Origin: a virus
DNA length: 64,000 bases
IMG/VR virus record: IMGVR_UViG_3300021960_000043
Span: 31,232-95,231 of that record
Strand: one strand, 5' to 3'
Shown here: positions 12,501 to 64,000 of the stretch, piece after piece
How the letters are laid out: each line of letters begins with the position of its first letter
How positions within the stretch are numbered: the first letter of the stretch is position 1
Notes under the pieces: model-generated
Database searches by the model: none
What the model was told of the DNA's origin: nothing
Seen by the model: only the letters and a program-made list of their open reading frames with translations
Position numbers and translations under genes: made by a program

Positions 12501-15500
12501 CTACAGCAGGTAGTAGTGACTTTGTTAGCGGTGGTAGAGAGTACACTGAAATCTATCAATTGTTACAAAGTAGAAATCTACTTTCAGGTGTAACGTCATC
12601 AACAACAGGAGATTTGAGCATTACCGCTGTTATATCTAGTGAGCCTGATTTTGGTGTTGAATCTCAAATAGAAGATGGAACAACTGTGAATGATAGAATG
12701 TTCCACAGTTTAAACGATGTATCACAAGATTACCAACTAGGTACTCAATATGCTTCTACTAGGGCTTTGGTGGAGATACCATTCTTCGCTAATCAATTCT
12801 TTGATAATGAGAGCGTAGGCACTTTAGTAGATGGTGATAACTCTTTCAAAATACATCTTGATGCTACTAACACAGCACACACGTATAATCCAAGTCCTGT
12901 AGGTAGAAGGCCAAAAAGTGTAGAACAAACAGATAGAGAGGCACTATCGGCTTATGCACACGCTATAGAGAACAACACTTACATTTCTTCTGCTAAGGTT
13001 CTTTCATACGATGGTACAATAACCATCACTGTTGATGATGCTAATATATTCCCTGATGCTAACTCTTCTGATATTGGTACTGATTTTAGAAATATAGGTG
13101 GTAACGGACAAGTTCTAAGGAATAGAAGGGCTTTTACTAAAACAGGAGAGTGGGTAGTTTATACCGATGTTGATTACAGTGCTAACACCCTTACTGTTAC
13201 AGACGGTGATTATTTCTCTTCTGTTAATTTCTTCAATGAGTTAGAAAACAATGAAGGCGATTTACGCCTTTATGTTGGACAAACATTACCAACAGAATTG
13301 ATAGAACCAATAGGTTCTGATAAGAGTACACCTTCGGCAGACTTTGAGAGCCGTTCTGAATATTATCACGACCAAGCAAGTATGATGACTCAGGGTGGAA
13401 ATGTTGATTATGGTTTGAGGCAATATGTCAGCGCAATCGAAATCAAAGCAGGGCCGGAAAGTAACCCACACGCAGAAAAAGTTACAACAAAAAGGGCTAA
13501 AGGGGATATTCAATCAATTCGTTCTTTTGGTGCGTCAGACGTTAATACGGTTGTTGTCTCACTTTCTCCTGATGATTTACTTCTTTTTCCTAGTTTGGGA
13601 AATCGTTCAATAGATGATTTTACTCTTGGTACAGGAGAATTGTTTTACGAAGCCACAATAGATTACAACGGTACTGATTACAAGTTTCATTACTACGGCC
13701 ATCTTGAAGAAATAAACAACTATGATAACACAGGTGCTGCTGCTGTGTCATCTGATATAGCAAAAAATAGCATAGTGTTGGTATACTATACTTCGGGTAC
13801 ATATCCTACGGCTACTCCAACGGCAACAAGTGGTCTTGATTGGGTTGATTTTATCGGTAGTGAAGTTAAATTAACAGGTAGGAAAAGAAGAGTATTCTTT
13901 GATGAATATGTGAATAATGCAACAGGAAGTGTGTTACAATTTGAAAATGAAAAGAATCCGTTGTATTCTGAATTAATAGCGAATACTAAGTTTAGTTCAG
14001 GGCTTGTGTGGGCTAGTACAAGTTCAAAAACAATAACCGTAACTAATACTACTACTTCAAAATCTTTGAATGATTATTTTGACATGAACTTCAAAGAAGG
14101 AGATTTATTGTTTTTCAAATATTCAGGTAGTATTAGTAGCGTAAACAAAGATGAAATTGGTTATTTAGGTGTTGTGGATTATGTTACAGGTGGTACAAGT
14201 ATAACTCTCAAAGCAAATGTACCTGCTTGGATGAGAGAAGAAACGACAGCACAAATAGGCGTTGCTGTAAATGATTTCAATGATTTTGATGCTGTTCTTA
14301 ATTCTAGTTGGTTGCACCCTTATTGTAATGGTGGACTACGACAAGGAGATACTGTATGGGCTAATATGTCATATAGCAATCCTCATGCTATGGAAGGTTT
14401 GTTTTCAAAGAGTAGAGGTATACATAATGAAGGTCTTGTATGGAAAGGTTTCAATGGTGGTGAGGGTAGTTTAGATGCTACAAACCCAAGAGACAGTATA
14501 CCGATGGAGAACTTCTTGATTGGTGATACATGTATAGAAACAGCAAGAAACCTAGCACAACACATCAATAAGACTGTTGAAGAGAATTACAAATCTTTAG
14601 GGTTAAATGATGTAATAACAGCAGATTCATTTATCGTAGGGAAAAAATACAAAATAGTTTCTACAGGTGATACAACATTTACATCTATAGGGGCTATAGA
14701 TAATGAAGTGAATACTACATTCACAGCAACAGGTGTTGGTAGCGGGACAGGTACAGCAACACAACTTGATGCACCAACAGTAGCATTCGTAGACCCGTAT
14801 CTAGCAGGTGAGAATCATGCTAGAGTTCTGTTATACGATGCTGAACACGATAGAGAATACATCGCTTTCCAAGACATACACATGCAAGTGCAATCATCTG
14901 CTGAGACAACTAAGATTGGTTGGGATAGAAATGTGGTTGAAGGTACAAACACATCATCTACTGATTTAGTAAAAAGACTACCTGAGATAAACGGTGCTGC
15001 TGCACATGGTTATACAACACAAATAGACGTTGCTAACGGCTATCCATCACAAAACAAGTTCATTCGCTCAACTCAACAATCTAAGTTTATTGAGAGTGCA
15101 TATGCACACGACTTAGCCAATAAGCAAACTGATGATTTAATTTACAGCACTTTGTATGATGACACAGTTAGACAAAATAACTTTTCAAGGTTATATGGTA
15201 AAGCACACGGACACCATGTACATGTCGGTTTGAGTATAACAGGTAATGCAGACGGGTATGCTTATTCATTCAGTACACCACTTCGTAACAATGAATCTGT
15301 AGCATCATGGAAAATAGCAAACTCTTACCATGTGCTAAATAGAAAATTGACAAATGGTTTCATAGATGGTTTGTCTAAAAACATTTCAGATTCATTAAGA
15401 GATAGAGGCACATTCTTTGATACCCCTGATGGTACAAGAGTCATTCCAGCATTTTTGTGTTTGAAGGGCATAAGAGCAGAATCTCTTGATTTAAGTGATG

Positions 15501-18500
15501 CTAGGATGAAACTCTTACCTCAATGGACACAGATGGACTTTGTAAGAAGATTAACAATATCTACAGGAGAGGTTGCTGAAAGTGAAAGTGTAGTTGATGT
15601 TGAAAGTGCTGTCAATGAAATTGTTAGAAAAATAAACCAATACGGTGCATTACAGGCTAGATTGTCTAATGGTGCGTCTGCACACGACCCTTCTCCGTTT
15701 TGGGATTCAGATAAGGCATTTGCTAATCAAGATAGAGGTTCTCACATGGGCTATCTTAGAGCGCATATTGGTAGAAGCGTAGAGGATAGACAAGGAAATC
15801 AAGGACATACTATAGTAATACACAGTACAGTACCGGGCGCTACGGGTAGAAACTTTTGCGTTTGGTTAGATAACAGTACGTCACAGACATCTTACAACCC
15901 TCAATTCTTAGTAGGACATGGAGGTAGATGGCGTAACTTTTGGGCTTTACCTGAAGAGAAGCAAGGTGAAAATATGCACCCTGCCCCTATGCCTCTTGAC
16001 AAAAATGGTAGACCGTTTGCACCGATTACCACATTAAGACAATACATACAATCAGATGAAAGTGGTGAAGATGTATTATCAGTTGCTGATTTTGGTGCTT
16101 CCAAAAATACAGACCTTTTGGCTCTCAGCGATGTGTTAAGTGGAAAAAATCACAATTCTGTAAACCCTGACTCTTTTGATTTAGAAGCATCTGCTACCAT
16201 TGTTGAAGGGTTGAAAACAGGAACAGCAGCAATTGGTAGAGTAAACTTTGGTGGTCTTGTTGCAACAGGTGTACCGGGTTTTTCACCTAAAGCCGGACTT
16301 TACGGATTTGGGAAAAGAGGCGATACAACATTTGCTAATAGATATGGTGTGAGTGATATTGCGGATAATGATTACACTTCACACATATCAACATCCTCAT
16401 TAGATGAAGAAAATATAGGCTCACAAAACATATATGGTTTACAATTAAAAGACCATAAAAACAATACATACGGTGTTAGATATATCTATAGTAAATTAGG
16501 TAGAAGTTTTTCAAATGAAAATACTATTTTACCTGATACTTTCCGAGATGAAGTACAAGTGTATTTTGATGATTCAAGTAATGAAGAAGGTGGGTTTACC
16601 ATTGGAAAACATATGCGTGGCACAGGAGATGCAACAGGTAGGTTGTCTAGTTCTCTTACAGCATCTGATTGGAGAGGGAATAGATGGAATGCTGTGCCTT
16701 CTCCAAATCTAGGTGTTAAACTAAGTTTTGTTGTTTCGGGAAATAATGTAACAGTAGACGATGGTAACGGTTCGGGTACAGGGTATATAACACCATACAC
16801 AAGTTCAGATTTCACACATCCTGATAAATTAGGTTACTTAGGATTTCCAAAAGAAAACGGTGTCTTTCAAACAACTAAAGTGGCATCAGGTTCAACAGAA
16901 GGTGATGTTACTAGTTACGAATATAGAATTGGTGATACTTTTTACAATTGCACTAATGCACCAGCAACAGGTGATTATATTGTATCTCCGACTATGAATT
17001 GGACTACATTAGTTACAGATGAATTATTGGCTGCTGTCACAGCATTTGCAATTAACTCATCGTTTAATTCTAATAATGATGTTATAGATTATATTCCGTT
17101 TGATTGCACATCAATGTATGCTGCTGATGGTAGAACATTTGGTGAACACGGTGTTAGGCGTGATGCCATTCGTATAAAATCATCAAAACAAATATCCAAG
17201 ATGTTTTCAGCATCTACACACAAAGACTTCGGTATACAAGCAGCACATCTAGAGTTTGGTGAAGTAAGAAAAGCAGAAGTAGACACAGATGGTAATTGGA
17301 CTTTTGGCACATCTAGAGCGCCTAGTAATACACAAGTGGACACAGGTAGAAGTGTTGATTGTGGTTATATTCCAAGTACAATTCTAAGAGTTAAAACTAA
17401 GTTTTGTGGGCCTAATTCCAACACTGTTACACCGATTATAGTTGGTAGTGATAACAAACCAATAAACACATCTCGGTGGAAAAAGAATCTATCAGGTGAA
17501 GATTATGTTGATGTATCAGGTGATAAGATATTACCAAAAATAGACAATCCTATAGTTAGAACTGATGTTTCACAAAGTAGTCATTGGAATCACCAACACG
17601 TAATTTTAACTAATGACATGTATCATTTCCTCAAACCTGCTACCGATTACACATCAAGCGATAGTAGTGCTAGTCATATACAACCATTTGGTGAAAGAAA
17701 GAATATATACATAAACAAAGATACCTATGTTACAGCAGAGGCTTTTGTAGGGGATAATACCACACATACACTAAACAACACAATACGATGGACAGCAAAT
17801 AGTGAAATCAATTGGCCTTCTTCTGTTGTAGACGCATTCTTACATTTACACCTATCTCAAGAGTTTGATGGTATACGCTCACTTGGTAGTGTGCTATCTG
17901 AACCTATAGTACATTTCAAAGGTGGAAAATCAAGCCCCGACCATAGCGTACCGTTATTCTTCGGTGGTGGTTTTAGTGGGGTTGTGTTGGATGTTAACGA
18001 TGGTTCAATGAATGACTATTCAGACTTCTATACACATCCTTACTCAAATGGGCCAACAGGAACTGCGGGTATACAGAATGCAAATGAAATATCTACAAGT
18101 TTTGCCATGTTAGATTGTAATGCTATCTTCTCTTTCTTCCCCGGTGCTGCGTTATGTAACCAACATCGAGGTAGTCCGTTACCACCTGTGTTCAACAAAC
18201 AAAACGTGTTGTCAACAGATTTGGATAGAGGCGGTACTCTATGTGATACTAATGGTGTTGTAAAAGCCAAACCTGTACCGTTGGTCTTGAGATTCCCACA
18301 CCCAACAGCCCGTTATGAGGATTACAAAAACGATGTAGATAACAAAACAACATACTTGGTGTTTGGGCCGGGTCAAGCATTCCCTTTCCATAATGAAAGA
18401 ACTACATCTAATGGTGAGACTACTAACCCTACAGAACCACATCCGGGTAGAGTTGTAACAACAGGTAATGGTTGGAACAAAGTACCATACTATGATGACC

Positions 18501-21500
18501 GATTTCACAATCAAATAAACAACAAAGATACAGGTAATTCTTGGAAAGCATATAGACCGAGATTGAAATCAAATTATCTTGCAGAAGCGATGTATCATTG
18601 GCGTTGTGTTATCAATTGGGAATCACCTGCTGGTTACTCTCTAGGTAGAACCCATAGACAATACCCCTCACATGGAAGAAACTACGGACAGATGATTGAT
18701 GTAGACACCACTTATGATAACCGCACACAACCACTAGGCTACACACCTTTCATTGGTTACGGTATAGCAACAGCCGCAGATACTGTGTTTCACATGGATG
18801 GTGGTTTCCATCCCGGCGGTCATTGGATGGATGAGATAATTACCTTCAACCCACCAAAACAAACAACAGAAAAAATCAGCGTTTCAGGATATAGTGAGAT
18901 TAACCCAACAGCATTCAGAGTAGGTGCTGCTATGGTGACTGCTTACATAGATTGGACACAAACAACAAACCTAGCAACAACCGATGTAGATACTGAATAC
19001 ATTGTTGTGGATGGAACAAGATGTCAGAACGGTGAAGAGTTAGCATCCGTTATCAGTTCGGCAATCAATTCATTCCCCGGCAAAGGTGCGTTGAAATCTA
19101 TAGGTGGCACACACCATCCTTCAATGGGTACGTCAAACAGACAAGACCGTTACGGTTGGGTTGATGTTGCTAATCCCAACTTTACAGATTCTACTTGTGA
19201 TACTACTAGTGGAGATGCTACTGTAACTATGGATAGCACTGCTGAATTATTTGTTAGTATGTCTGTGTCCGGCACAGGTATTCCTAGTGGTGCGACAATA
19301 TCTAGTATAACTAACTCTACCACTTTTGAATTAAGTGCAAACGCTACTGCTTCTAACACCAACACTACTTTAGTATTCGGTACAGTAAACTCATCAATTA
19401 CAACAATGGGAGATATGTGGATTGAGAGTGCAGAAACAACAGACCAAGACATGTTGAATAATTTACCTGCATCGGGTTGGTTAAGAGCAAGTACCACAAC
19501 AAGTCCAGCATACGCTTGTTATTACATGAAGCAAGTAATACCCGGTAGTGGTAGTAACTTCAAGGCTAGATTCTACTTTGCCCCAAATCAATTTAGAGGC
19601 TCGGTAAGTTCAACAGCAGATAAGAAAACATTGAGAGGCTTCTTCCATGATAACGGTGCGGTAACACCTGCTACTGATGATAAATTATGGGTGTGGTCTA
19701 AGACAGGTGTTATTCGTTTCAACAATGAGAATGCAAGCACACGCGACCACATGACACAGGTTCATTTCTCAGGTATAGTAGATGCTATTGATAGAACCAA
19801 ACCAATAGGTGCTGTTGGTTGGCATGGTGAAAGATATTCATATCTCAACAGTTTGAAAGTAGGTACAGAAGGTTATGCTGCTGGTTTAGGTGCATACCAT
19901 CCATTCCTCAATTTTACACCATATGGTACTGCTTCAACTGTAATGAACGTGTATGGTTCTTTACCACTAATAGCACCACTTACTGATTCTCCTGAAAGCG
20001 GTGCGATTATCAATGACGGTGAAACTACAGTCGCCACAAGAAAGTCTTACATTAGCACACCTTACACAAGTAACACGTTTACAACTGCTGCTGCTAGTTT
20101 AAGAAATTACGATTATACAGACCCAAAAAACACAACACAAAGGTCGGTAAAACCACCAAACTATGTGTTTAGTTACGCTAATACAGATACTAATAGTGTG
20201 ATGGAAGATTCGTTACATCACCCACAAGGGGTATACTCATCTGCATTTTTAGTGGTGTCATATGAAAGCGAATTGTCAATGGTAGCAAAACACGATAGAG
20301 ATGGTGTGGATGCTTTTGGTGATTGGTTGTACGCAAAACATGGCACTAGTGCAGACATATCAGATGGTGGCACTACCAAGTGGGATGAGAGATTTCACGG
20401 ACAAGACCGTTTCATAGCACCTGCAAATGCAGGGCCAAACGTAGAGGCTTTGATAGTAGATGGAACACAAGTACCACAAGGTACAGTAGGTTCTAATTGG
20501 ATTGATTCATTATTCCCACCTGCTAGTGGTGATTTCGTACATCTACATTCTGCTGTTTCTAATGACCTTTCGTTACACAATGCAGTACCCGGATTCAAAG
20601 CAACAGGAGATTTGTTGTATGACTTAGACCACTCTGTGGGGTCTTTCAATTTACAAGCAAGTGGTGTTGAAAGAAATGTATCAGAAGATTATCATTCTTC
20701 AACTTACACTTCATTGTTACATGGAGATGCAAATAAGTTTTGGATGTCTGATATAAACGGTTATCAAACTTACAAAAATAGTCCTGTTAAAAACTTCACA
20801 GTAGAGAATGTTGTGTGGAAGAGAATGGATGGTGGCAACCTCTCATTACCCGCAATCAACGCTAGAGGTATGGGTGCTGTACCTTTCGTTACAAGAGTCA
20901 AAAATAACACAGCATATCTAACAGGTGAAAAGATATATGGTAACGTGAGGTTTAGTTTTGAAACAACCAATTCTGTTATGATGCCTACAATAGAAGCACA
21001 GGAACTAAAACAACCCGGTTTACCAAATTACAAAGTAAACAACGTGCTACAGATACCAAATGAAGAAATACAATTCCAAGAGATAACAGTAGTTGATGAT
21101 AGTGGTAAGGAACACACCATAGAAGGCGGTAGTCCGTTTGGTACTGTGATTAGATGCTTTGATGTCAAGAGAGGTAAACCATCTCTTGCTAACAGCGGTG
21201 AAGCGCCCAACCTAGCAGTTAGACTACCTAATCCTGATAGCATACCCGGTAACATTGTTGTGCGTTCAGGATTTGACCCTATACAAGCCTATCAGAATGA
21301 GACACTCGGTGCAGGTGGTATGCAACATCCCGGCAAAGGCTCAACACGCTTAGGAGAGTTATTTGAGAGGACAACGCAACATAACCCAGTAAATCACCCA
21401 TTGTATGAAGAATACGGTTGGGAACACTTTGATGAAGAATCAGGTGAGAGTAAGATTGGTGGTTTCAACACCAACAGTTTAGATTCTGCTTACGAACTAC

Positions 21501-24500
21501 ATGACAGGATGCTTTTATTCCATGTGTGTAAAGTCGGTGTTGGACACACTCATCGTTACCCAACTGCTTATGCACACGCTGTTACAAATACTGTGGGTGG
21601 TGGTGTTGTTAATCAGGCTCTAACTGTATCTTCTTTCTCTAGCGGTACGTTAACAGCGAGTGCTACAATAGATACAACAATTTTTGCTGCTGACTTCGGC
21701 ACTAAAGAAGAAGATGATAACAGGCGTTACATTAGAGTATACAACGCTAGTGGTGAAAGCGGTCTAGCATCCTACACAGGTGTTAGTGGAACTACGTTTA
21801 CAACAGTCAAAGGGGATGCAAACTTCGTATCACTTGTAGCGAAAACCGACACACTAACGATAGTGCCATCCTATCCTATTCCAGCGGGCTCTGCTAGATT
21901 CTATGCAGCAAACAGATTACGCGACCACGCAGAAGTGAGTGGTAACTCTCCTGATATGGCACACACAAAATACGTTGACGGTAGTGAAACGCCATATCAA
22001 AGATACTCAAAACCAATAATGACACCTATGGCTTATCCTAGAATGGGGCATCACTATGTCAATGCAACACAACCTATGCTACCCGGTCATTGGGCGCACC
22101 CTGCATATCAATCACTTTACAAGAAACACAGGTTTGAACAATCGGTAAACATTGGAAGAAAAGACAGTAAGACAATGAAAGACGCTGTTGTTGCATCATC
22201 TGAAGAAGTACCTGTAAAGGCTGATTTATCAATAGGAGACAGCCTTAACCCTGTGGAAGCAGAAGTTGTGTTTGGCTCTCTAAACGCTGCACCGAGTCCA
22301 CCATCCGATTTACATGGCGGTGCGTTCACACTAATGTTTGAAACATCTGTGAAGTGGGATGGTTACGGTGTGTTAGCAAGTTTGGGTAATGCTGGTGTTA
22401 TCAATAAAGCAGGTGGACATAGGATTGTGTTGGCCGCCGCTGCTAACTATACACTAGCAAATCATTTCCCTGACCCATCGGAAGTCGGTGCTTACCAAAT
22501 AGTCATACAACCAAACATGTTTAGGGGGCAATTCGGCGGCGTTATAGAAAGTGAGAGTTATGCATTTACAGGTCAACAAGTAAACACAGTAATTGGTATT
22601 AAAAAATACGATAGTGAGTTTGGTGGTTTAGTGTTAATACTAGCAAAAGCGACACAATTTGATTGTAGAGGTTGTGAAGTATTCGTAAATGAGTTGATGT
22701 TAGACGTATCTCCTGATTTTGGTAGTCAATTTACAAAAATACCACCTCTATTACTTTACAATTCATATGGTGTTAACTTAAATGAAACCCCATCGTTCAC
22801 TAGAAGGAACTTCCCATACTCCCCAATGATGGTGAAGTCAACACCTTCACACACACTTAACGTGCCGTGGTGGTCTATATTGTTTGGAAAGATAGATAGT
22901 AGCACAGAATTAATTACAGATAATTCAAATTACATGGGATTGTCTCAATATGCACCTCATAATTATGAAGTGTTTGCAAAAAGTACCTATGGAAGTGTCG
23001 GACATATATTAGGAATGCAAGGGCATAATACAAAATACCCAAATATATATTCAAGTATATTAGAAAATACATCTCCAATTGCAAAAAGTATAGTAGCAAC
23101 TAAGACAAGTAATGGTGAGTTTACTGTAAATGATGGTAGTGGATTTCCCGCTAATCCTCAATTTGGACAAGAAATATACTATACAGCAGCAAATGGTAGG
23201 GTTTATTCTACTACATATACCCGCACAGGGTATGCAACAGACGGTATTAATTTAAGAAATACCTTTAATGTAACTAATAGTAGTCAATTTTATTCTAATT
23301 TAACTACAGGTGTTACAATATATCTAAGTACAAATTATAATTCATATACTTCTAAGCAATATAGTAATGATAAAACTATATCTAATTATGCAAAAACAAT
23401 TAGTACATTATCTTCAGGTAGTAGAGATACAAATACATTACACCCGCCTGATGCATTCTTATGTTTATGGAGTCATAATTTAGGTAGACCTATGACATAT
23501 TTCTCAGATACTAGAAGTGCTTGGGATAGTCAACCATCAGTTCAAGCAAGATACAACGCTGTGCCTGAGCATTATGAAACAATACATTATCATTCTGCTA
23601 ATTATCAAATGAGTTTTGGCCCATTTAGTTTTATGATGAAAGCACAAAAAGCATCTAATGGTGATGGAACGGTCAATACCATAGATAACGACCTTAATAC
23701 TTATGATATATCATCAGGTATTTATGGCGCTACTCTATATGGTGGTTATTGGCCTTGTGGTAGTAGAGGTGGCCCACAAGTTAGTTGTTTGGATAGTTAT
23801 ACACAAAGCAGCGTTTCTTGGGCGTTACCGGGTTTTGCATCTAATGTGACAATGAATTGGGAAGATGAAGGTTGGAATAGTCTTAACAACATATACACAA
23901 GAACAACAGGTCTTACCACAAGAATTAGTAATGATACAGTTAGAAGAAACTTCGGCTATAGAGTTGGATTAAAACAAGCATACAACCGCCCTGCTTGGGG
24001 CATTATACCTGCTCGCGGCGCTTTAGAAAAAACCGCCACAGGTTCTGCATACAACACTACTAGTTACGATTCAGGGCCGATAGTGCAAATAGAAACACAT
24101 GGTAATCTTTCATCCAAATATAATGGGATTTTAGGCCGTTTAAGCAACTTTACAGGTATGTTAAACTCAGATGTGCAAGGTGAACAAGTGCGTTACGCAC
24201 AAGGCACAAGGATGACTAGACCGTTTGGTGTGCCTGTAAGAACACTATCTAACAAGAGTACAGTTGAAAGAGATTGGTGGGGTGATGTAGAAGGTTTGGA
24301 AATCACAGATTTGGCGTTAGCATCCAAACATTACCTAGTAGATTGGTGGGGTAACGATAGGGGTGAAGATGTGAGAAAATCACCTGTGCGTGGATTCGGT
24401 ATTAGACCTGCTTGGGATTGCGGTAACGCATACAAAGAAGGCACTAACACACCGTTTGATAGAGTGTGGAATAGTGGCTCTCCGTTATTCAATGTGAAGA

Positions 24501-25867
24501 ACATACTCAACAGCAGCGGTCAAGTTAGCATCACTAACAGTAAAACAATACCGCGTTTTGGCGGTGTTGTAAATGATGCAAATAACGATAGTAGTAGCAC
24601 CTTAGTGGATGTGTTTGCACCATTCCATTCTTTGAGAGTGGGTGATATGGGTAACGGTAGAGGTGTTAGATACCCGACTTTCTTCAACCAATGTGTGTAT
24701 ACCGATGTTAGTCAGGCTGTGGTTAACACAGGTTTGGTTCTAAGCAAGCACACATCTGAACCGTTGTTTGGTGAGGGTTTGTTACGCCCCCGTAACGCTG
24801 TACTGCAAGCCGATGAAGTCAAGAGAGGTATAAGCAATTCACTCAATTTATCAGATGATGGTTTGTTGAAACCCGAAGCAACGGTCAGTAGTAGAACAGA
24901 AACAATAAGCGGAAGTTCACAACACGTTGATGCAATCAGTAGAACAAGCCCAAGAATCGGTATTGATGCACCGTTGTTTGACACAACCGAAGAAAACTTT
25001 GTTGCTCTAAACAGCGAAGCACATAGTCTACATACAGATAGAAACGTAGGTCAAAGAGTTGTGTTGCAAAACGCATTCAAGAGAAACAGTAACAGCACAA
25101 CTAACGATTTCATCACACCTACGTCTTTCACTAGACAACCGGGTGGCTCTCCACAATCAGCAATATTGAGATTTAGCCACACTAACGTATTCCGTAGTTA
25201 TGGCGGTTCTTACATCTTAGAAGCAAAGAATTATTCGACTATAGTTGATGATAGTGGTTGGGGTAGAGACAACATAGCATCACCTAGTAAATCAAGTAAT
25301 CCTTATCAAAACTCAGTTAAGAAAAACAACAATCGAGCAAACAATGAAACTGATAAGTCAGTAAGATTCTTACTAAGACCGATTAGAGTGTTGGATAATA
25401 AACACGTTGAATTGTATAGAATGAACGACCAATTACATTCTGATAGTCCTCAAGAAGTTGACACGGAGAAATCTTACTACGCTGTCACATCAGGTAACAA
25501 ATATGGGTTGTTTAACTATGAAGTAGATACACCTTCCACATCATCATTCTATGTGGGTGGTACAGCAGGTGCAAATGCAAACGGGCCGTATTATCCTGTG
25601 GTGTTGTTTGATGATGCTTCTTTCACAAATACTCGTTCAACAGGTCCAACAATACCAACTAGTGAATCTTCAAACTTCACCACAAATGTCAAACAAACTG
25701 TTGCTAGACTTATTGTAACAGAAAACACATTACAACATCACCGTTCTGATTCTGTAAGAAAAGGTGATTTCACAGTCCAACCAAGATTCTCTCAAACGCT
25801 GCATCCTAAAGGACACAAAGGAGATGTAAGTTTCAACACAGACGACCACACAGGTGATGCAACATGA
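9524..25867 (+). CDS. Giant tail / host-recognition protein, 5447 aa
   Basis: A single frame of 16.3 kb. The N-terminal 210 residues look like a LamG/concanavalin-like jellyroll (HVVATFYGNKIEIYVNG; ENIFIGGKGGEFRGVIESL), and a second such region lies near 4270-4400 (GGAFTLMFETSVKW). Compact modules typical of marine phage fibres occur near residues 1700-1746 and 3222-3286. The rest is rich in Gly, Asn, Thr, Ser, His and aromatic residues and lacks signal peptide or membrane segments. Tail position and carbohydrate-binding-like folds suggest an adsorption protein or giant baseplate/fibre. The first usual start is GTG 9524, but the jellyroll pattern continues upstream in frame (AFFFDGISDSIVV), so translation probably begins further up, at a non-canonical codon near 9461-9470. 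Confidence 0.8.
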   Translation: MPQGYFSSIGNKNIDSEHDIRSLLNAKAKGGIESVTSGLYSRHIAIESWLMPDFGGVVVEKRNQFSLKVGEVHEAAPIVFTVSLLNKGRVEEHTIETGYHDGSRYVGAIYPKTESSGIFNTQPSDLNRNHRELIHVVATFYGNKIEIYVNGILMAHKTLNNPDYILNVSEENIFIGGKGGEFRGVIESLHLAANFRPQMINPSVPLKGEDTLLLYRFEEPITVFDDVFKLTSSASSGATTINIGTTAAAKLATLLKGVSVTSGTIDFTQSPFSSGNYKVIQSTSSGITKHDVAHVPYNLLLRPGGYDYTTKKPNGSPPERVRLKSINVDTGVLTIASIHLDFNTANNGARGLLHVHTTDSRLVVVGADLLIDSGTGKPYQPPHYSSRAIDRTGQMVIDESTYEQHGFVYSSRMALSTTDTDNPYAATWPTTISTDFSIGHSGRHINNHVEGHHYLRKFPKANEEILDSQSDGSADLISAIYDVPLDGMKEQLSINSKVDLYKEIGDYTVIDFVNSSTVSSIYSNYELTSSPGSGVQEIIAIGGSGFNYTPFLLKSPVISPTATPNENTRSHHLRPSKESRVALLHVPVLASTYNLAPYVQIHYNAIDLTGASMNSSNSSVPLLMVEKMIPSGTTVIAEGVFLFETIKTALNSGDLTLYAPGGCILLDSGENANARDLLEVHALSSDSSEGYDADTLLDESNTPPNLTPYVGDTLVNTPPSIITDSTSKTTQHDSSFHRMMFETVKSTKSLGDYSDYKTMDVVATNSSAEPDTIVTSSSSPVFESFDIIDNVSIADTHADTMLIVQPSQRSRFYQLKNVKSQRNTLDNPNIISLHYLLSRGRLRSVDETKEDEGASYTTIQAIGLQNSLSGRNVSFTGSGSNDSHIVKEIEPNAPVVSVTLGGVGQGAVDTKPTFLESEFSREPYSTRRDYVVTAIKYDATNKRIYVNPINNNSANMKSWGTFGFPKAGKIYFEDGSHAKYDFKASTYFEFSTATAGSSDFVSGGREYTEIYQLLQSRNLLSGVTSSTTGDLSITAVISSEPDFGVESQIEDGTTVNDRMFHSLNDVSQDYQLGTQYASTRALVEIPFFANQFFDNESVGTLVDGDNSFKIHLDATNTAHTYNPSPVGRRPKSVEQTDREALSAYAHAIENNTYISSAKVLSYDGTITITVDDANIFPDANSSDIGTDFRNIGGNGQVLRNRRAFTKTGEWVVYTDVDYSANTLTVTDGDYFSSVNFFNELENNEGDLRLYVGQTLPTELIEPIGSDKSTPSADFESRSEYYHDQASMMTQGGNVDYGLRQYVSAIEIKAGPESNPHAEKVTTKRAKGDIQSIRSFGASDVNTVVVSLSPDDLLLFPSLGNRSIDDFTLGTGELFYEATIDYNGTDYKFHYYGHLEEINNYDNTGAAAVSSDIAKNSIVLVYYTSGTYPTATPTATSGLDWVDFIGSEVKLTGRKRRVFFDEYVNNATGSVLQFENEKNPLYSELIANTKFSSGLVWASTSSKTITVTNTTTSKSLNDYFDMNFKEGDLLFFKYSGSISSVNKDEIGYLGVVDYVTGGTSITLKANVPAWMREETTAQIGVAVNDFNDFDAVLNSSWLHPYCNGGLRQGDTVWANMSYSNPHAMEGLFSKSRGIHNEGLVWKGFNGGEGSLDATNPRDSIPMENFLIGDTCIETARNLAQHINKTVEENYKSLGLNDVITADSFIVGKKYKIVSTGDTTFTSIGAIDNEVNTTFTATGVGSGTGTATQLDAPTVAFVDPYLAGENHARVLLYDAEHDREYIAFQDIHMQVQSSAETTKIGWDRNVVEGTNTSSTDLVKRLPEINGAAAHGYTTQIDVANGYPSQNKFIRSTQQSKFIESAYAHDLANKQTDDLIYSTLYDDTVRQNNFSRLYGKAHGHHVHVGLSITGNADGYAYSFSTPLRNNESVASWKIANSYHVLNRKLTNGFIDGLSKNISDSLRDRGTFFDTPDGTRVIPAFLCLKGIRAESLDLSDARMKLLPQWTQMDFVRRLTISTGEVAESESVVDVESAVNEIVRKINQYGALQARLSNGASAHDPSPFWDSDKAFANQDRGSHMGYLRAHIGRSVEDRQGNQGHTIVIHSTVPGATGRNFCVWLDNSTSQTSYNPQFLVGHGGRWRNFWALPEEKQGENMHPAPMPLDKNGRPFAPITTLRQYIQSDESGEDVLSVADFGASKNTDLLALSDVLSGKNHNSVNPDSFDLEASATIVEGLKTGTAAIGRVNFGGLVATGVPGFSPKAGLYGFGKRGDTTFANRYGVSDIADNDYTSHISTSSLDEENIGSQNIYGLQLKDHKNNTYGVRYIYSKLGRSFSNENTILPDTFRDEVQVYFDDSSNEEGGFTIGKHMRGTGDATGRLSSSLTASDWRGNRWNAVPSPNLGVKLSFVVSGNNVTVDDGNGSGTGYITPYTSSDFTHPDKLGYLGFPKENGVFQTTKVASGSTEGDVTSYEYRIGDTFYNCTNAPATGDYIVSPTMNWTTLVTDELLAAVTAFAINSSFNSNNDVIDYIPFDCTSMYAADGRTFGEHGVRRDAIRIKSSKQISKMFSASTHKDFGIQAAHLEFGEVRKAEVDTDGNWTFGTSRAPSNTQVDTGRSVDCGYIPSTILRVKTKFCGPNSNTVTPIIVGSDNKPINTSRWKKNLSGEDYVDVSGDKILPKIDNPIVRTDVSQSSHWNHQHVILTNDMYHFLKPATDYTSSDSSASHIQPFGERKNIYINKDTYVTAEAFVGDNTTHTLNNTIRWTANSEINWPSSVVDAFLHLHLSQEFDGIRSLGSVLSEPIVHFKGGKSSPDHSVPLFFGGGFSGVVLDVNDGSMNDYSDFYTHPYSNGPTGTAGIQNANEISTSFAMLDCNAIFSFFPGAALCNQHRGSPLPPVFNKQNVLSTDLDRGGTLCDTNGVVKAKPVPLVLRFPHPTARYEDYKNDVDNKTTYLVFGPGQAFPFHNERTTSNGETTNPTEPHPGRVVTTGNGWNKVPYYDDRFHNQINNKDTGNSWKAYRPRLKSNYLAEAMYHWRCVINWESPAGYSLGRTHRQYPSHGRNYGQMIDVDTTYDNRTQPLGYTPFIGYGIATAADTVFHMDGGFHPGGHWMDEIITFNPPKQTTEKISVSGYSEINPTAFRVGAAMVTAYIDWTQTTNLATTDVDTEYIVVDGTRCQNGEELASVISSAINSFPGKGALKSIGGTHHPSMGTSNRQDRYGWVDVANPNFTDSTCDTTSGDATVTMDSTAELFVSMSVSGTGIPSGATISSITNSTTFELSANATASNTNTTLVFGTVNSSITTMGDMWIESAETTDQDMLNNLPASGWLRASTTTSPAYACYYMKQVIPGSGSNFKARFYFAPNQFRGSVSSTADKKTLRGFFHDNGAVTPATDDKLWVWSKTGVIRFNNENASTRDHMTQVHFSGIVDAIDRTKPIGAVGWHGERYSYLNSLKVGTEGYAAGLGAYHPFLNFTPYGTASTVMNVYGSLPLIAPLTDSPESGAIINDGETTVATRKSYISTPYTSNTFTTAAASLRNYDYTDPKNTTQRSVKPPNYVFSYANTDTNSVMEDSLHHPQGVYSSAFLVVSYESELSMVAKHDRDGVDAFGDWLYAKHGTSADISDGGTTKWDERFHGQDRFIAPANAGPNVEALIVDGTQVPQGTVGSNWIDSLFPPASGDFVHLHSAVSNDLSLHNAVPGFKATGDLLYDLDHSVGSFNLQASGVERNVSEDYHSSTYTSLLHGDANKFWMSDINGYQTYKNSPVKNFTVENVVWKRMDGGNLSLPAINARGMGAVPFVTRVKNNTAYLTGEKIYGNVRFSFETTNSVMMPTIEAQELKQPGLPNYKVNNVLQIPNEEIQFQEITVVDDSGKEHTIEGGSPFGTVIRCFDVKRGKPSLANSGEAPNLAVRLPNPDSIPGNIVVRSGFDPIQAYQNETLGAGGMQHPGKGSTRLGELFERTTQHNPVNHPLYEEYGWEHFDEESGESKIGGFNTNSLDSAYELHDRMLLFHVCKVGVGHTHRYPTAYAHAVTNTVGGGVVNQALTVSSFSSGTLTASATIDTTIFAADFGTKEEDDNRRYIRVYNASGESGLASYTGVSGTTFTTVKGDANFVSLVAKTDTLTIVPSYPIPAGSARFYAANRLRDHAEVSGNSPDMAHTKYVDGSETPYQRYSKPIMTPMAYPRMGHHYVNATQPMLPGHWAHPAYQSLYKKHRFEQSVNIGRKDSKTMKDAVVASSEEVPVKADLSIGDSLNPVEAEVVFGSLNAAPSPPSDLHGGAFTLMFETSVKWDGYGVLASLGNAGVINKAGGHRIVLAAAANYTLANHFPDPSEVGAYQIVIQPNMFRGQFGGVIESESYAFTGQQVNTVIGIKKYDSEFGGLVLILAKATQFDCRGCEVFVNELMLDVSPDFGSQFTKIPPLLLYNSYGVNLNETPSFTRRNFPYSPMMVKSTPSHTLNVPWWSILFGKIDSSTELITDNSNYMGLSQYAPHNYEVFAKSTYGSVGHILGMQGHNTKYPNIYSSILENTSPIAKSIVATKTSNGEFTVNDGSGFPANPQFGQEIYYTAANGRVYSTTYTRTGYATDGINLRNTFNVTNSSQFYSNLTTGVTIYLSTNYNSYTSKQYSNDKTISNYAKTISTLSSGSRDTNTLHPPDAFLCLWSHNLGRPMTYFSDTRSAWDSQPSVQARYNAVPEHYETIHYHSANYQMSFGPFSFMMKAQKASNGDGTVNTIDNDLNTYDISSGIYGATLYGGYWPCGSRGGPQVSCLDSYTQSSVSWALPGFASNVTMNWEDEGWNSLNNIYTRTTGLTTRISNDTVRRNFGYRVGLKQAYNRPAWGIIPARGALEKTATGSAYNTTSYDSGPIVQIETHGNLSSKYNGILGRLSNFTGMLNSDVQGEQVRYAQGTRMTRPFGVPVRTLSNKSTVERDWWGDVEGLEITDLALASKHYLVDWWGNDRGEDVRKSPVRGFGIRPAWDCGNAYKEGTNTPFDRVWNSGSPLFNVKNILNSSGQVSITNSKTIPRFGGVVNDANNDSSSTLVDVFAPFHSLRVGDMGNGRGVRYPTFFNQCVYTDVSQAVVNTGLVLSKHTSEPLFGEGLLRPRNAVLQADEVKRGISNSLNLSDDGLLKPEATVSSRTETISGSSQHVDAISRTSPRIGIDAPLFDTTEENFVALNSEAHSLHTDRNVGQRVVLQNAFKRNSNSTTNDFITPTSFTRQPGGSPQSAILRFSHTNVFRSYGGSYILEAKNYSTIVDDSGWGRDNIASPSKSSNPYQNSVKKNNNRANNETDKSVRFLLRPIRVLDNKHVELYRMNDQLHSDSPQEVDTEKSYYAVTSGNKYGLFNYEVDTPSTSSFYVGGTAGANANGPYYPVVLFDDASFTNTRSTGPTIPTSESSNFTTNVKQTVARLIVTENTLQHHRSDSVRKGDFTVQPRFSQTLHPKGHKGDVSFNTDDHTGDAT
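14621..14760 (+). other. Embedded 'GK-Y-I-S-G-T-F' module in the giant protein
   Basis: Encodes SFIVGKKYKIVSTGDTTFTS followed by an IGA-type continuation ending in ATGVGSGTGTA. This about 45-residue beta module recurs in many marine phage structural proteins, so it looks like an exchangeable insert. It has no flanking repeats that I could see. Confidence 0.6.
19187..19380 (+). other. Embedded 'SGTGIPSGATI' module in the giant protein
   Basis: Encodes a Thr/Ser-rich module with VSGTGIPSGATISSITNSTT and a following FELSANATAS stretch. This small beta domain is widespread in phage fibre and baseplate proteins. Residues just before (PNFTDSTCDTTSGDATVT) form its start. It is most simply read as a horizontally shuffled domain. 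Confidence 0.6.
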
Positions 25868-59874: not shown

Positions 59875-60291
59875 TTATTCTTCATCCCCCATAGGTGTAA
59901 TAGGTAGACCTTGTTGTTCAACTAACATATCAACACTTCTTAGATACTTCACTAAATCAATAATGTCTTTCTTACTCATAGCAACTGAACACACCATACC
60001 TTGTGGATGGTTATGTTCAGAACCATGTATCAACAACTGCACACTAGGCTGTCCACCAATAGTATGTTCAGGATAAACTAAGGCTGACATACCCACATAG
60101 TTCTTACCTGTATTCGCTGCTGATTCAAACTCAGGGTCTTGTGAACGTAAGTATTGACTCACTTTATCTTCACAAGGTATTCTATCAGTATACCCGTACT
60201 TCCTATTACTTAACTCAGATTGAGTATCACACAAAACTTGTATGTGCATCATACCACTATCGTAGTTACATTTCACTTGCATTCTATTCAT
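59875..60291 (-). CDS. Unknown protein, 138 aa
   Basis: Beta-rich protein with MHIQVLCDTQSELS, AALVYPEH-like strands (MSALVYPEHTIGGQPSVQLL) and HGSEHNHPQGMVCSVAMSKK, then a helix (IIDLVKYLRSVDMLVE). The His cluster (HGSEHNH) could bind metal. Start at ATG 60291, overlapping the phosphatase gene's stop; a start 15 bases upstream would lie inside that gene. Not recognised. Confidence 0.6.
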   Translation of the reverse strand: MNRMQVKCNYDSGMMHIQVLCDTQSELSNRKYGYTDRIPCEDKVSQYLRSQDPEFESAANTGKNYVGMSALVYPEHTIGGQPSVQLLIHGSEHNHPQGMVCSVAMSKKDIIDLVKYLRSVDMLVEQQGLPITPMGDEE

Positions 60292-61502
60292 TTTATCATC
60301 TTCCATTCTTTTTCACTTCCTTTTTTTTTACCACTGTCTTTAAGGTACGGGCCTATCATTTCCCGTTGTTCCTTAAAGTAATCCGTATCACTAAGTGGTT
60401 TCATAGTGATACTTCCACCTTCTTCTATTACCTCTATGAAAGCGGCTGACTTCCCTAGAATCTTTTGTTTCTCATAATCTAATTTGATTCCCAAATCTTT
60501 TGCTATACAATACTTACATTCATTATGATGCATTTCTAATATCGTGTATTCTTCTCCACATGAAACACACAAACCTTCTTTCTTGTAATCATTGATGTCA
60601 TGTACAGGTGATAACATACCAAATATTTCTTCTAATGACTCAACATTATCATGGTACATCTTATTTTCAAACCATATGAATCTATTATATTCATCGTGTG
60701 CTTCTAACATATCACACAAGACATAACCTCTTTGAACGAAATCATCTTTTGGTTTACTCTGACTAACATAATCTCCTAAGTTAGATTGCTTACCACGTTT
60801 CTTAAACTCCACACCATCAATAGCCTTTCTCTCCCTCTTTCGACTCTTACCTTTCTTACCTTTCTTACCTTTCTTCTTATCTGTTTCAGCCAACTCATCG
60901 TAGATACTTTGCATAGAAACATCATCCCACGTAATTTTGTTGTTACTTTGAATAAACAAAGTATCTCCAACAGGTATGTCAATCATGTCTGCAATATATT
61001 GTTGTTGAGCAAAGTTCTCTACTGCATGTGTGCAATAACTATCTCTGATGTAATTAACCAACTCCGCTACATCCTTCCAAGTTTGGTCTTTTGTAGGTAT
61101 CATCAGGTGAGCAAGGATAGCCAACTGCACACCTGTTCTACCATGTCCGCCCATACATGATGTAGAGACAGTCTTTACATTCTTAGTTTTGAAATCATCA
61201 ACCAACGCTATCCAAAAGTCCTTACCTAAATTAGCAGGTATACTGAAATCAGGCCAATCGATACCTATGATGTGTGGTATTTTTCCTGTGTCAATCTTAT
61301 CAGTACAAGACCAACCATCAGGCAACACATCTCTCTTTATCTTCATAGGCATAACATCAACAGGCCCAATTGCTACATCAGGATAAGGGTTCATTCTTGT
61401 CCATGCACCTTGCCTAGATGTACCGCCAGCATACACTTTGATACCTTCTGCTTCAAACACAAGTGGGTTTCCTGTATGACAATTCATCTTACTAACCATC
61501 AT
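60288..61502 (-). CDS. Protein tyrosine / dual-specificity phosphatase-like protein, 404 aa
   Basis: The Cys-based phosphatase signature C-x5-R is present as STSCMGGHGRTG (C116, R122). A candidate general acid lies in IDWPDFSIP (D82 or D85) and a supporting helix follows (VQLAILAHLMI). After the catalytic domain (about 1-200) come a Lys/Gly-rich linker (KKGKKGKKGKSRKRERK), probably nucleic-acid or membrane-contacting, and a zinc-finger-like region (CVSCGEEY ... CKYCIAKDLG), ending in a basic tail. It starts inside the stop of the dikinase-like gene (ATGATGG after GGTGATGA), so the two are made together and may act on the same phosphate. Confidence 0.75.
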   Translation of the reverse strand: MMVSKMNCHTGNPLVFEAEGIKVYAGGTSRQGAWTRMNPYPDVAIGPVDVMPMKIKRDVLPDGWSCTDKIDTGKIPHIIGIDWPDFSIPANLGKDFWIALVDDFKTKNVKTVSTSCMGGHGRTGVQLAILAHLMIPTKDQTWKDVAELVNYIRDSYCTHAVENFAQQQYIADMIDIPVGDTLFIQSNNKITWDDVSMQSIYDELAETDKKKGKKGKKGKSRKRERKAIDGVEFKKRGKQSNLGDYVSQSKPKDDFVQRGYVLCDMLEAHDEYNRFIWFENKMYHDNVESLEEIFGMLSPVHDINDYKKEGLCVSCGEEYTILEMHHNECKYCIAKDLGIKLDYEKQKILGKSAAFIEVIEEGGSITMKPLSDTDYFKEQREMIGPYLKDSGKKKGSEKEWKMIK

Positions 61503-63880
61503 TCATCACCATCCTTGTTCAACTCATTAAAGTCTACCATCCATTCAGTATCTTTTCCTTTCACCGCTTGTATCTTCAACATCTTTTTCATCATAGCCAC
61601 CAACACATCAAACATTGGGTCGTTCTTTTCTATACCATTCCAAGCATTAACAAACATCTGAGCATCAACCTCATCGTACTTTTTATTCTGTATCAAACCA
61701 CACACATGATATGTCAACTGAGAAGATTTACCCTCAGGTAGTGGTAAGAATACAGATGGTGATACAGGATTAAAGAACATACTTGTGTAATCGAAACCAC
61801 CAATTGCATTAGCCAAGATAACTATATCCAACTCTTTACATATTGCACAATCTTCAGAACCACAAGGTATGAACGCAGGTGTTTTACCATTAGAATACTT
61901 ACTAGGTATGTGTCTAGCATCTTGTGGTAGTTTCTTCACCACATCTCTCAGATACTCAGGCACATCAAACGAACTACCCATGAAGTTGTTTCTCCAATAG
62001 GCAGGGTTCTTTCCCTTCAAGAAACCAAACAACTCTCCCCAATCACATGATGTGTCTTTCAATCCTTCATTGTCCTCGGTGAACATCTTTTCTGCTAGTT
62101 CCCATGTTCTCATCATAGAAGCCAATGCCCTCTTATCATGTGGGAAAGCACCTGTTCCATAGTCCAATGCTGTATGATGTAGGAACTTGTTGAACAAACT
62201 ACCATTGTTGTGTTGCCATGTTTCACAGGAATTAACCGCTAATGATACTGCCTTAAGATTCTCTTCACTCATATCATTCACAAAAGTATCTATGATACCT
62301 GCTACTTCAGCAGCCTTCAAAGCACACTCTTGCCAATTCTTTCCACCAAAACCATTCTTCCATTTTATGTTATCATTATTGAAATATTTAGCACACCATT
62401 CAAGTGCGGCCTTCATATCAGAATATGATGGATTCTGATTCTCTACACTAGCAAAGTAATGTTGCCTGTTCTTCAAACTGAATCCTTCAAAGTGGTCGCC
62501 ACACAACAGATGTAATACAGTGGGAACTTCGATGTAACCATTTTGTGCGATGGTAGGATTGATGTAAATATGCCTCATCTCTCCAAGACATACTGATAAG
62601 GCTGCTTTCACAACCCAACCTGCAAACGCACCTGCTAACACAGCACATTTAGTGCCGTTCCAATTCTGACCTTTCCATTGATGGAAGAAATGAGAGAACC
62701 AACCATGTTGTCTTTGATACCTAGTTTGAGATAAGGTTAGCCCAACATAGAATGCTTGTTGCATGTCACTATGGTAAGGGTTGTATGGTTGAGGGATGAT
62801 ATGTATTGCTGTATTAGCAACCCAACCTGCTGAACCTTCAATCCATGTCTCTCCAATCTCAGGACTCCCTACGATGTAAGGTATGCCATGTCCTCTTGCA
62901 TGAGCGCATATGTGAGATAACATAGAGCCTTCAGGGTGTGATATAACAAACCCCTCAGGGCATAGTTCTCTTGTGATGTTCTCTTCTAACCATGCTACTT
63001 CTTCCAATCCTTCAGCCACCCACACTTGATTAACCTCAACCTTTCCTTGTGGTATCATACCATTGATGACTGATAATACTTCATTACCCTCCACATCTAA
63101 ATATGTAAATGGTGGCATCAAAGGTGCATGTTCAGGCGCACCTCTCACTTGTGTTAGATAGATGTTTGAGTGCATGTAAGCCTCAGTCCATGTCAGCCAT
63201 TTCTCACCTCTATCAAACACAAACTCTAACTCGTAGTTATCCTTTTGCACTTGACCCAAACCTTCAAAGTATTCTGCCACATTAGCATCTTCATTTCTAG
63301 GCTTCAAAGCAAAATATAGTTGTCTACCATGTGAAGCAGTAACCCCATCATGCCCTTCACCAACAACAGCATACTGATTAGGTGCAAGCACCATACTTGA
63401 TGTAGCATCAATGAAAGGTTGTAGTAACATACATCCATTAGGGTCTTGCTCTTTCATTATTGTAGCAAGCCTTCTCCATTCACCCATGTATGTTTCTCTA
63501 GTTACTTTGATAGATTCAATCACACCATGTCTAGCAACTTCAGGACAAGCACGTATGAAAGCATACTCATTAACTAACTCATCTTCTATGTAAGTAAGTG
63601 CTGCTGCTGCAAGAGCATCGTCATCTTCCAACAACAATAACTCAATTGGTAAACTAGGATAAACACTACTCTTCTGTCTATCCTTAATCAAACTAGCCGC
63701 TTTCTGCGACATCACCTTAGCCAATCTATCAGGCGTTAGAGTGCCGTAATCGCTTTTGTTAGTCTTGATGGCTTCCACCACTTCTGCACTTTCATTAGCG
63801 ACATCATCCCATAACCCTTGCATTATATCATTCAACATATCATTCATCATATCATTTACATTTTCTTCTTCGTCTTGCAT
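61499..63880 (-). CDS. Dikinase-like protein with phosphohistidine swivel motif, 793 aa
   Basis: Two parts of the PEP synthase / pyruvate phosphate dikinase plan can be read. Residues about 150-250 resemble the end of an ATP-grasp lobe (CMLLQPFIDATSSMV; YELEFVFD; IYLTQVRGAP, like the Q-x-RP end). Residues about 307-355 match the mobile swivel domain (EGFVISHPEGSMLSHICAHA, then RGHGIPYIVG), with H323 at the phosphohistidine site. The C-terminal 430 residues do not resemble the PEP/pyruvate barrel and have Cys clusters (EDCAICKEL). The layout recalls antibiotic phosphotransferases of the rifampin type. ATG 63880 follows GGAGATGAAT. Acceptor unknown. Confidence 0.6.
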   Translation of the reverse strand: MQDEEENVNDMMNDMLNDIMQGLWDDVANESAEVVEAIKTNKSDYGTLTPDRLAKVMSQKAASLIKDRQKSSVYPSLPIELLLLEDDDALAAAALTYIEDELVNEYAFIRACPEVARHGVIESIKVTRETYMGEWRRLATIMKEQDPNGCMLLQPFIDATSSMVLAPNQYAVVGEGHDGVTASHGRQLYFALKPRNEDANVAEYFEGLGQVQKDNYELEFVFDRGEKWLTWTEAYMHSNIYLTQVRGAPEHAPLMPPFTYLDVEGNEVLSVINGMIPQGKVEVNQVWVAEGLEEVAWLEENITRELCPEGFVISHPEGSMLSHICAHARGHGIPYIVGSPEIGETWIEGSAGWVANTAIHIIPQPYNPYHSDMQQAFYVGLTLSQTRYQRQHGWFSHFFHQWKGQNWNGTKCAVLAGAFAGWVVKAALSVCLGEMRHIYINPTIAQNGYIEVPTVLHLLCGDHFEGFSLKNRQHYFASVENQNPSYSDMKAALEWCAKYFNNDNIKWKNGFGGKNWQECALKAAEVAGIIDTFVNDMSEENLKAVSLAVNSCETWQHNNGSLFNKFLHHTALDYGTGAFPHDKRALASMMRTWELAEKMFTEDNEGLKDTSCDWGELFGFLKGKNPAYWRNNFMGSSFDVPEYLRDVVKKLPQDARHIPSKYSNGKTPAFIPCGSEDCAICKELDIVILANAIGGFDYTSMFFNPVSPSVFLPLPEGKSSQLTYHVCGLIQNKKYDEVDAQMFVNAWNGIEKNDPMFDVLVAMMKKMLKIQAVKGKDTEWMVDFNELNKDGDE

Positions 63881-63881
63881 T

Positions 63882-64000
63882 TTATTCATCTCCTTGTAAC
63901 ATTTCATAGTCATCTCCTAACACCCATACACTAGGCCCACCAATTTCTAGGTCGAGTTCATCAAAGTGATGTGGTGGAATATCTACTTCATCTAGACCCA
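63882..64000 (-). CDS. 3' end of an upstream gene (partial)
   Basis: About 39 codons enter from the right edge and end at TAA 63882-63884: an acidic tail with VDIPPHHFDELDLEIGGP and SVWVLGDDYEMLQGDE. The last codons (GGAGATGAA) form the ribosome binding site for the dikinase-like gene. Too short to identify. Confidence 0.65.
   Translation of the reverse strand, partial: GLDEVDIPPHHFDELDLEIGGPSVWVLGDDYEMLQGDE

Follow-up and report, generated by a model that had tools for sequence, protein, structure and literature searches.

A predicted barrel-less dikinase with a candidate acceptor domain and a linked Cys-phosphatase in tailed viruses of archaea and bacteria

The dikinase-M gene is located on the minus strand near one end of a 64,000-nucleotide stretch of viral DNA (hereafter the window), which corresponds to positions 31,232 to 95,231 of the 95,231-bp IMG/VR record IMGVR_UViG_3300021960_000043. 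Its protein product carries an ATP-grasp domain, a predicted phosphohistidine swivel domain and a further domain, here termed M, and lacks the phosphoenolpyruvate (PEP)/pyruvate barrel. The gene overlaps a second one that codes for a Cys-phosphatase of the protein-tyrosine/dual-specificity class. We have high confidence in the residue invariance, gene order, M and phosphatase homology and barrel absence reported below, which, like the domain make-up, were computed. In our view, these genes probably specify a viral system that writes and erases phosphate, in which a dikinase uses M as its own acceptor unit and the co-translated phosphatase reverses the reaction. The features of the dikinase-M gene, in window coordinates, are as follows.

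61499..63913, minus strand: dikinase-M fusion gene, with its stop end at 61499 (open reading frame and 30 full-length viral homologues)
63119..63742, minus strand: ATP-grasp domain, about residues 58-265 (AlphaFold2 and Foldseek; residue order)
62789..63112, minus strand: predicted phosphohistidine swivel domain, about residues 268-375 (sub-threshold PF00391 match and hhalign)
62912..62914, minus strand: codon of H334, the predicted phosphate-carrying His (invariant in 30/30 homologues; aligned with the catalytic His of known dikinases)
62180..62620, minus strand: core of the M domain, residues 432-578 (hhalign to phage phrog_20946; residue map)
61838..61912, minus strand: possible zinc site H668...C684-G-x3-C689-x2-C692 at the C-terminus (nearly invariant in the 30 homologues)

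Domain architecture of the dikinase-M protein

The longest frame begins at 63913 and encodes 804 amino acids, and residues are numbered from this position throughout (H334 is H323 in the numbering of the initial annotation). An alternative start at 63880 would yield 793 amino acids and is probably the likelier one, because AAGGAG is located immediately upstream. No relatives were recovered by tblastn with the full protein or by a first full-protein scan of viral sequences. A search with residues 235-375 yielded 19 viral contigs, and alignment-based scans expanded the collection to 25 and then 34 loci. The 30 full-length viral homologues that were aligned share pairwise identities of 25-97%, and the initial annotation of this open minus-strand frame as a protein is thus borne out by its relatives. 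No cellular homologue was confirmed among the GTDB species genomes. The most divergent archaeal-virus dikinase (L095:4107-6905, 932 aa) retains all invariant residues of the core and of M.

The swivel assignment begins with PF00391 (PEP-utilising enzyme mobile domain), which is the sole Pfam-A family to match the window protein with E<1 (E=0.0097, residues 328-355). In the 95-kb record, the single PF00391 match also falls in the dikinase-M frame (62843-62932, E=5.6e-5). The S-H...R...GIP pattern proposed earlier is present at H334 as S-H-x5-R-x2-GIP-x2-VG, and hhalign places H334 in register with the catalytic His of pyruvate phosphate dikinase (PPDK), PEP synthase (PEPS) and rifampin phosphotransferase (RPH). 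None of 30 column-shuffled controls scores as high as the real profile against the phage, RPH and PpsA dikinases, and each time the real profile aligns at the swivel His motif. Because of its unique Pfam-A match, its invariance in the 30 homologues and these shuffled controls, the motif is, judged by sequence, more than a chance resemblance.

Upstream of the swivel, the core residues R63, K71, R121, R128, E228, E230, Q255 and R257 are invariant in the 30 aligned homologues, as are H334 and R340 within it. Their order, K...R...[DE]xE...QxR...H, is the same as in PpsA, PPDK, RPH-like and phage enzymes, and the Q-V-R that had been read as the end of an ATP-grasp domain corresponds to Q255-V-R257. 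When the AlphaFold2 model was compared with the PDB by Foldseek, the top matches were nearly all ATP-grasp structures (probability 1.00, best E=1.7e-3). Among viral proteins, the closest structural match is gp139 of Bacillus phage G (E=1.4e-4), which is annotated as a pyruvate phosphate dikinase. The barrel family PF02896 has no match in the record, whereas all 14 of 14 control genomes were positive. Profile, model and invariant residues therefore agree with the architecture put forward in the initial annotation, in which an ATP-grasp domain and a swivel are followed by about 430 residues that replace the barrel.

The M domain and its cassette in bacteriophages

Relatives of the C-terminal part came to light among phage proteins, when a profile of the archaeal-virus dikinase matched a hypothetical phage protein of ~340 aa (M) and not the phage dikinase. 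Residues ~432-578 align with the phage phrog_20946 proteins at E=1.4e-10 by hhalign, or 2e-11 with more sequences, and phrog_20946 is also the best PHROG match of the window protein (E=0.0029). Conversely, the phage M profile matches the dikinase-M gene alone among all open reading frames (ORFs) of at least 60 aa in the record (E=1.3e-6). The M signature is E445-x-R447-H448...W518...G523-G524-x2-W527...H568-N569-x-G571-x3-N575-K576, or ExRH...GGxxW...HNxGxxFNK in short form. The invariant residues of the C-terminal part in the 30 homologues are E445, R447, W518, G523, G524, H568, N569 and K576, while H448 is kept in 25 of 30. The signature residues map one-to-one between archaeal-virus and phage proteins (E445/E110, R447/R112, H448/H113, G523-G524/G180-G181, W527/W184, H568-N569/H213-N214 and K576/K221). 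When modelled alone, the C-terminal domain is all-helical with a predicted local distance difference test (pLDDT) score of 83. The ~430 residues described earlier as having an unknown fold do remain without a PDB match, but they contain a domain with phage relatives.

A tblastn search with gp139 recovered 74 phage records, and genes annotated as 'PPDK' are found in phages of Vibrio (33), Stenotrophomonas (4), Rhizobium (2) and Rhodobacter (1). Among isolated phages, M is present in the same numbers of records for each of these four hosts. The neighbours of the phage 'PPDK' genes are annotated tyrosine phosphatases and the ~340-aa protein, labelled as hypothetical or as a 'membrane' protein. 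M was found in 80 viral contigs and in seven bacterial-genome contigs. In all 61 M loci with enough flanking sequence (56 clusters at 90% M identity, 40 at 50%), the order dikinase, phosphatase, M, phosphatase is found on one strand; 60 show it exactly, and in one the first phosphatase is split or doubled. Some contigs seemed at first to lack dikinase or M, but this was an antisense-ORF artefact, which disappeared once all ORFs were searched.

The phage cassette comprises three adjoining families, namely phrog_18609 ('PPDK'), phrog_17568 and phrog_20946, in Vibrio phages of the J26/SIO-2/VHS1 type, Delepquintavirus, RcZahn and Rhizobium phages. As predicted for the archaeal viruses, an ATP-grasp domain and a swivel occur without the barrel (PF02896 is absent from six complete cassette phage genomes and from two archaeal-virus contigs), and the order of catalytic residues is identical. 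However, the phage dikinase matches PF01326 (1e-26 to 1e-40) and PF00391 strongly and ends in a tail of ~170 aa, M is a separate protein, and two phosphatases are present. The archaeal-virus cassette has a far-diverged core, a fused M, one phosphatase and an unrelated third gene. No relation was found between the phage dikinase tail and either the archaeal-virus C-terminus or M. The archaeal-virus protein is thus a fusion of two phage cassette proteins, dikinase and M, and therefore the two are functionally linked.

The initial annotation overlooked that barrel-less dikinases are already present in bacteriophages. As far as literature could be found, the linked dikinase-phosphatase-M gene set had not been noticed before. 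The 'thymidylate synthase' label carried by phrog_17568, DLP3 gp141 and a protein of Vibrio phage 29Fa.3 (L133:9590-10051) was rejected, as these are cassette Cys-phosphatases; PF00303 has no match in seven cassette phage records, DLP5 and Summit among them. Dikinase matches without M were also observed in 'phage' sequences from Listeria, Enterococcus, Acinetobacter and faeces, many of them short unannotated contigs that may be host chromosome fragments.

The initial annotation also missed a Cys-phosphatase gene that overlaps the dikinase-like gene and is conserved with it; a third gene follows.

60288..61502, minus strand: Cys-phosphatase gene, 404 aa (PF00102, phrog_17568, hhalign)
61137..61157, minus strand: phosphatase signature C116-M-G-G-H-G-R122, C-x5-R (motif in 26/26 copies)
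61248-61250, minus strand: codon of D85, the general acid of the WPD loop, upstream of the C-x5-R signature (PD[FY].[IV]P loop)
59875..60306, minus strand: third cassette gene, 143 aa, without known family (conserved beside the phosphatase)

The window phosphatase matches PF00102 above the cut-off (E=2.6e-5). Its best PHROG match is phrog_17568, the phage cassette phosphatase family (E=1.8e-13), and hhalign against the phage cassette phosphatases gives 1.3e-20. Among all ORFs of at least 60 aa in the record, the phage phosphatase profile matches this neighbouring gene alone (3.4e-16). It detects no second phosphatase in the record, and the gene that comes next belongs instead to the third-gene family. 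C[MV]GGHGRTG and the WPD-like loop are intact in all 26 archaeal-virus copies. In 26 dikinase loci, a phosphatase-like gene comes next in every case and the small third gene is present in 25. A search that took the phosphatase as its starting point yielded 38 loci, with the dikinase immediately upstream in 37 and the third gene downstream in 37, the exceptions being contig ends. In the window, the phosphatase start overlaps the dikinase stop by 4 bp (ATGA), and the third gene shares 19 bp with the phosphatase gene; these overlaps point to coupled translation of the predicted cassette genes.

A possible phosphate writer and eraser

Catalysis, its direction and the acceptor site are matters that we infer. 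ATP would bind to the ATP-grasp domain through K71, R121, E228/E230, Q255 and R257. H334 of the swivel would then accept the beta-phosphate, with release of AMP and phosphate (Pi) or pyrophosphate (PPi). The swivel would rotate to M, where E445, R447, H448, H568, N569 and K576 might hold the acceptor, and the phosphate would be passed to an acceptor hydroxyl, from which the overlapping phosphatase could remove it again. In this scheme M, which is part of the dikinase polypeptide in archaeal viruses and has its own gene in phages, would bind the acceptor.

Phosphomonoesters are the usual substrate of Cys-phosphatases. Barrel-less dikinases with known function make phosphomonoesters on hydroxyls (PMC4844700, PMC12167813). 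A writer/eraser pair is therefore an economical reading, since one enzyme class makes what the other hydrolyses. Given the precedents of RPH, HpeHI and the glucan water dikinases, the acceptor group should by analogy be a hydroxyl and the product a phosphomonoester. In RPH, a swivel His serves a non-barrel acceptor domain whose Glu/Arg pair at the acceptor site contacts the catalytic His and the phosphate (PMC4844700), and the E-x-R-H motif of M is, by analogy, a candidate for such a pair. In HpeHI, which also lacks the barrel, the dikinase is split into two components (PMC12167813). Enzymes of the RPH and HpeHI types share with the viral system an ATP-grasp domain and the lack of a barrel, and they have what is predicted for it, namely a phosphohistidine swivel, a dedicated acceptor domain and a hydroxyl acceptor. 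However, the domain order in RPH is ATP-grasp, RIF-binding acceptor, swivel (PMC4844700), as opposed to ATP-grasp, swivel, M here, and RPH has no known phosphatase partner. The glucan water dikinases of plants and algae, together with the dual-specificity phosphatases of the SEX4/laforin type, form an analogous writer/eraser pair, which is set apart by its starch substrate, its carbohydrate-binding modules and its lack of M. To our knowledge, this is the only other pairing of a dikinase writer with a Cys-phosphatase eraser. PPDK and PEP synthase follow the same logic of N-terminal ATP binding and a central swivel, whereas the window protein has neither PF02896 nor a PF01326 match. Phage G gp139 (365 aa) combines an ATP-grasp domain and a swivel without a barrel, as predicted for the archaeal-virus protein, but no M or phosphatase match was found in the 35-kb stretch that follows it, and gp139 may put the shared core to another use.

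Several results weigh against this reading. The PF00391 match scores 15.9 bits, which is under Pfam's curated cut-off of 23.1. PF01326 (PPDK_N), one of the two profiles named in the initial annotation, is found neither in the window protein nor in the whole record. Profile similarity to known dikinases is limited to the swivel motif, with hhalign E-values of 0.002-0.02 in the individual comparisons. The ATP-grasp part gives weak, swivel-centred matches by hhalign, and sequence searches of the PDB returned nothing meaningful. The full-length AlphaFold2 model, built from 17 sequences, is of moderate confidence (pLDDT 73.8). For M, a Foldseek search with the isolated C-terminal domain yielded no PDB match, so its role as acceptor site is deduced; alternatively, M might be an enzyme in its own right or a substrate that becomes phosphorylated. 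Membership in the dikinase family thus rests on fold, residues and context, with catalysis being predicted.

Some of these results would be expected if the protein were another ATP-grasp enzyme, such as an amide ligase, with an accidental likeness to swivels and an unphosphorylated H334. The best PDB matches by Foldseek are indeed ATP-grasp ligases and synapsin rather than PPDK, and similarity to PPDK_N is undetected. We nevertheless consider this explanation improbable, given that neither H334 nor R340 varies and both align with the corresponding positions of known swivels, that PF00391 is the one Pfam family matched, that the equivalent position in the phage cassette is held by an unmistakable PPDK_N and PF00391 dikinase, and that the best viral structural match (gp139) is a dikinase. 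On balance, the dikinase assignment is very likely correct. The published interpretation of the Vibrio phage relatives is that they are PPDKs acting in glycolysis (PMC12038007, PMC9229204, PMC10141217), and the phosphatase has been listed as a separate auxiliary gene (PMC12038007, PMC9229204, PMC10272388, PMC10671443, PMC10141217). The strong PF01326 and PF00391 matches of the phage proteins fit such a role. However, an auxiliary PPDK that feeds host glycolysis is very hard to reconcile with the lack of PF02896 in the record and in the phage genomes and archaeal-virus contigs noted above. The C-terminal TIM barrel claimed for J26 ORF98 (L053:2956-5031), which was published as a PPDK, would span just ~168 residues, and the J26 genome has no PF02896. 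The fixed linkage with phosphatases and M is also unexpected for a glycolytic enzyme.

If the writer/eraser reading is correct, the next question concerns the acceptor. One option, which we hold with low confidence, is viral DNA or a DNA precursor. The cassette would then construct or trim a base or sugar modification, either bearing phosphate or activated by it, by which the genome is shielded from host nucleases. DNA of the cassette phage DLP5 is cut by 4 of 36 enzymes (PMC5834331) and that of DLP3 by 0 of 15 (PMC7326821). DLP5 lacks PF00303 (thymidylate synthase-type) and PF01242 (QueD/PTPS), which argues against hydroxymethyl-dU and 7-deazaguanine routes, and 49 kb of its annotation include no named hypermodification pathway. 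In addition, the phage cassette is usually located between terminase and DNA polymerase genes, and some archaeal-virus copies are near genes for ArdC-type antirestriction, SNF2 and pyrimidine-dimer glycosylase-like proteins. This link is correlative and concerns one phage genus, however. No hydroxylated-base pathway to supply a hydroxyl was found, the Delepquintaviruses have other candidates (a glycosyltransferase, a methyltransferase, ParB and sugar enzymes), and for the archaeal viruses and the phages of Vibrio, Rhizobium and Rhodobacter we found no restriction-digest data. DNA or a nucleotide is still the most testable acceptor, because DLP5 and DLP3 DNA is restriction-resistant and DLP5 lacks two known modification pathways.

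Alternatively, the acceptor might be a host or viral protein, modified on His, Ser or Tyr, and the cassette a phosphorelay that reprogrammes the host cell. The class of the cassette phosphatases suits this idea, and the M histidines (invariant H568 and the less constant H448) could accept phosphate. Yet protein phosphorylation is not known to us for any barrel-less dikinase; enzyme I of the phosphotransferase system is PEP-dependent and has a barrel. Conservation across archaeal viruses and proteobacterial phages also argues against one particular host protein, and we regard a protein acceptor as unlikely. A wider proposal, offered tentatively, is that of a new writer/eraser system common to archaeal and bacterial tailed viruses. 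A barrel-less dikinase together with M would phosphorylate a target of the virus or the host, perhaps DNA or a DNA precursor, under the control of dedicated Cys-phosphatases, and this would amount to a new way of modifying nucleic acids or macromolecules.

Regardless of the acceptor, several unconnected labels ('PPDK auxiliary metabolic gene', 'tyrosine phosphatase', 'thymidylate synthase' and 'hypothetical membrane protein') collapse into one cassette that spans viruses of two domains of life and predicts a new dikinase acceptor domain. If the target is DNA, the cassette would represent a novel type of genome modification, and if it is a metabolite or protein, a new route for viral cell takeover. 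The cultivable phages DLP5 and DLP3 and the Vibrio siphophages make a direct test possible.

The virus and other genes near the cassette

The record encodes a chaperonin, a family-B DNA polymerase (PolB), an RFC-type AAA protein and an ERCC4 nuclease, and its left and right halves are coded on opposite strands. Magroviruses (order Magrovirales), which are viruses of Poseidoniales, are tailed viruses of 90-110 kb with PolB, a clamp loader, a chaperonin and head and replication modules on opposite strands (PMC12999244, PMC10768690). Because the record agrees with these descriptions in size, gene content and strand layout, we infer that the host is a marine archaeon. The closest annotated PolB genes are those of haloarchaeal tailed viruses.

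The third-gene family (~140 aa, cluster 2, in 25 loci) has no known family or phage counterpart, and a relationship to small phage ORFs was not demonstrable (E=0.17). In related viruses, the region near the cassette includes the ArdC-type antirestriction protein (L036:4865-5827), the SNF2 helicase (L036:2115-4709) and the pyrimidine-dimer glycosylase-like protein (L036:17085-17633). Conserved proteins of ~520 aa (L036:13605-15155, cluster 4) and ~200 aa (L036:12044-12667, cluster 5), neither with a Pfam match, are encoded in the neighbourhood of the cassette at some 20 archaeal-virus loci. Finally, the structural module contains an open frame of 5447 aa (9524-25867), which might encode an exceptionally long tape-measure or tail protein.

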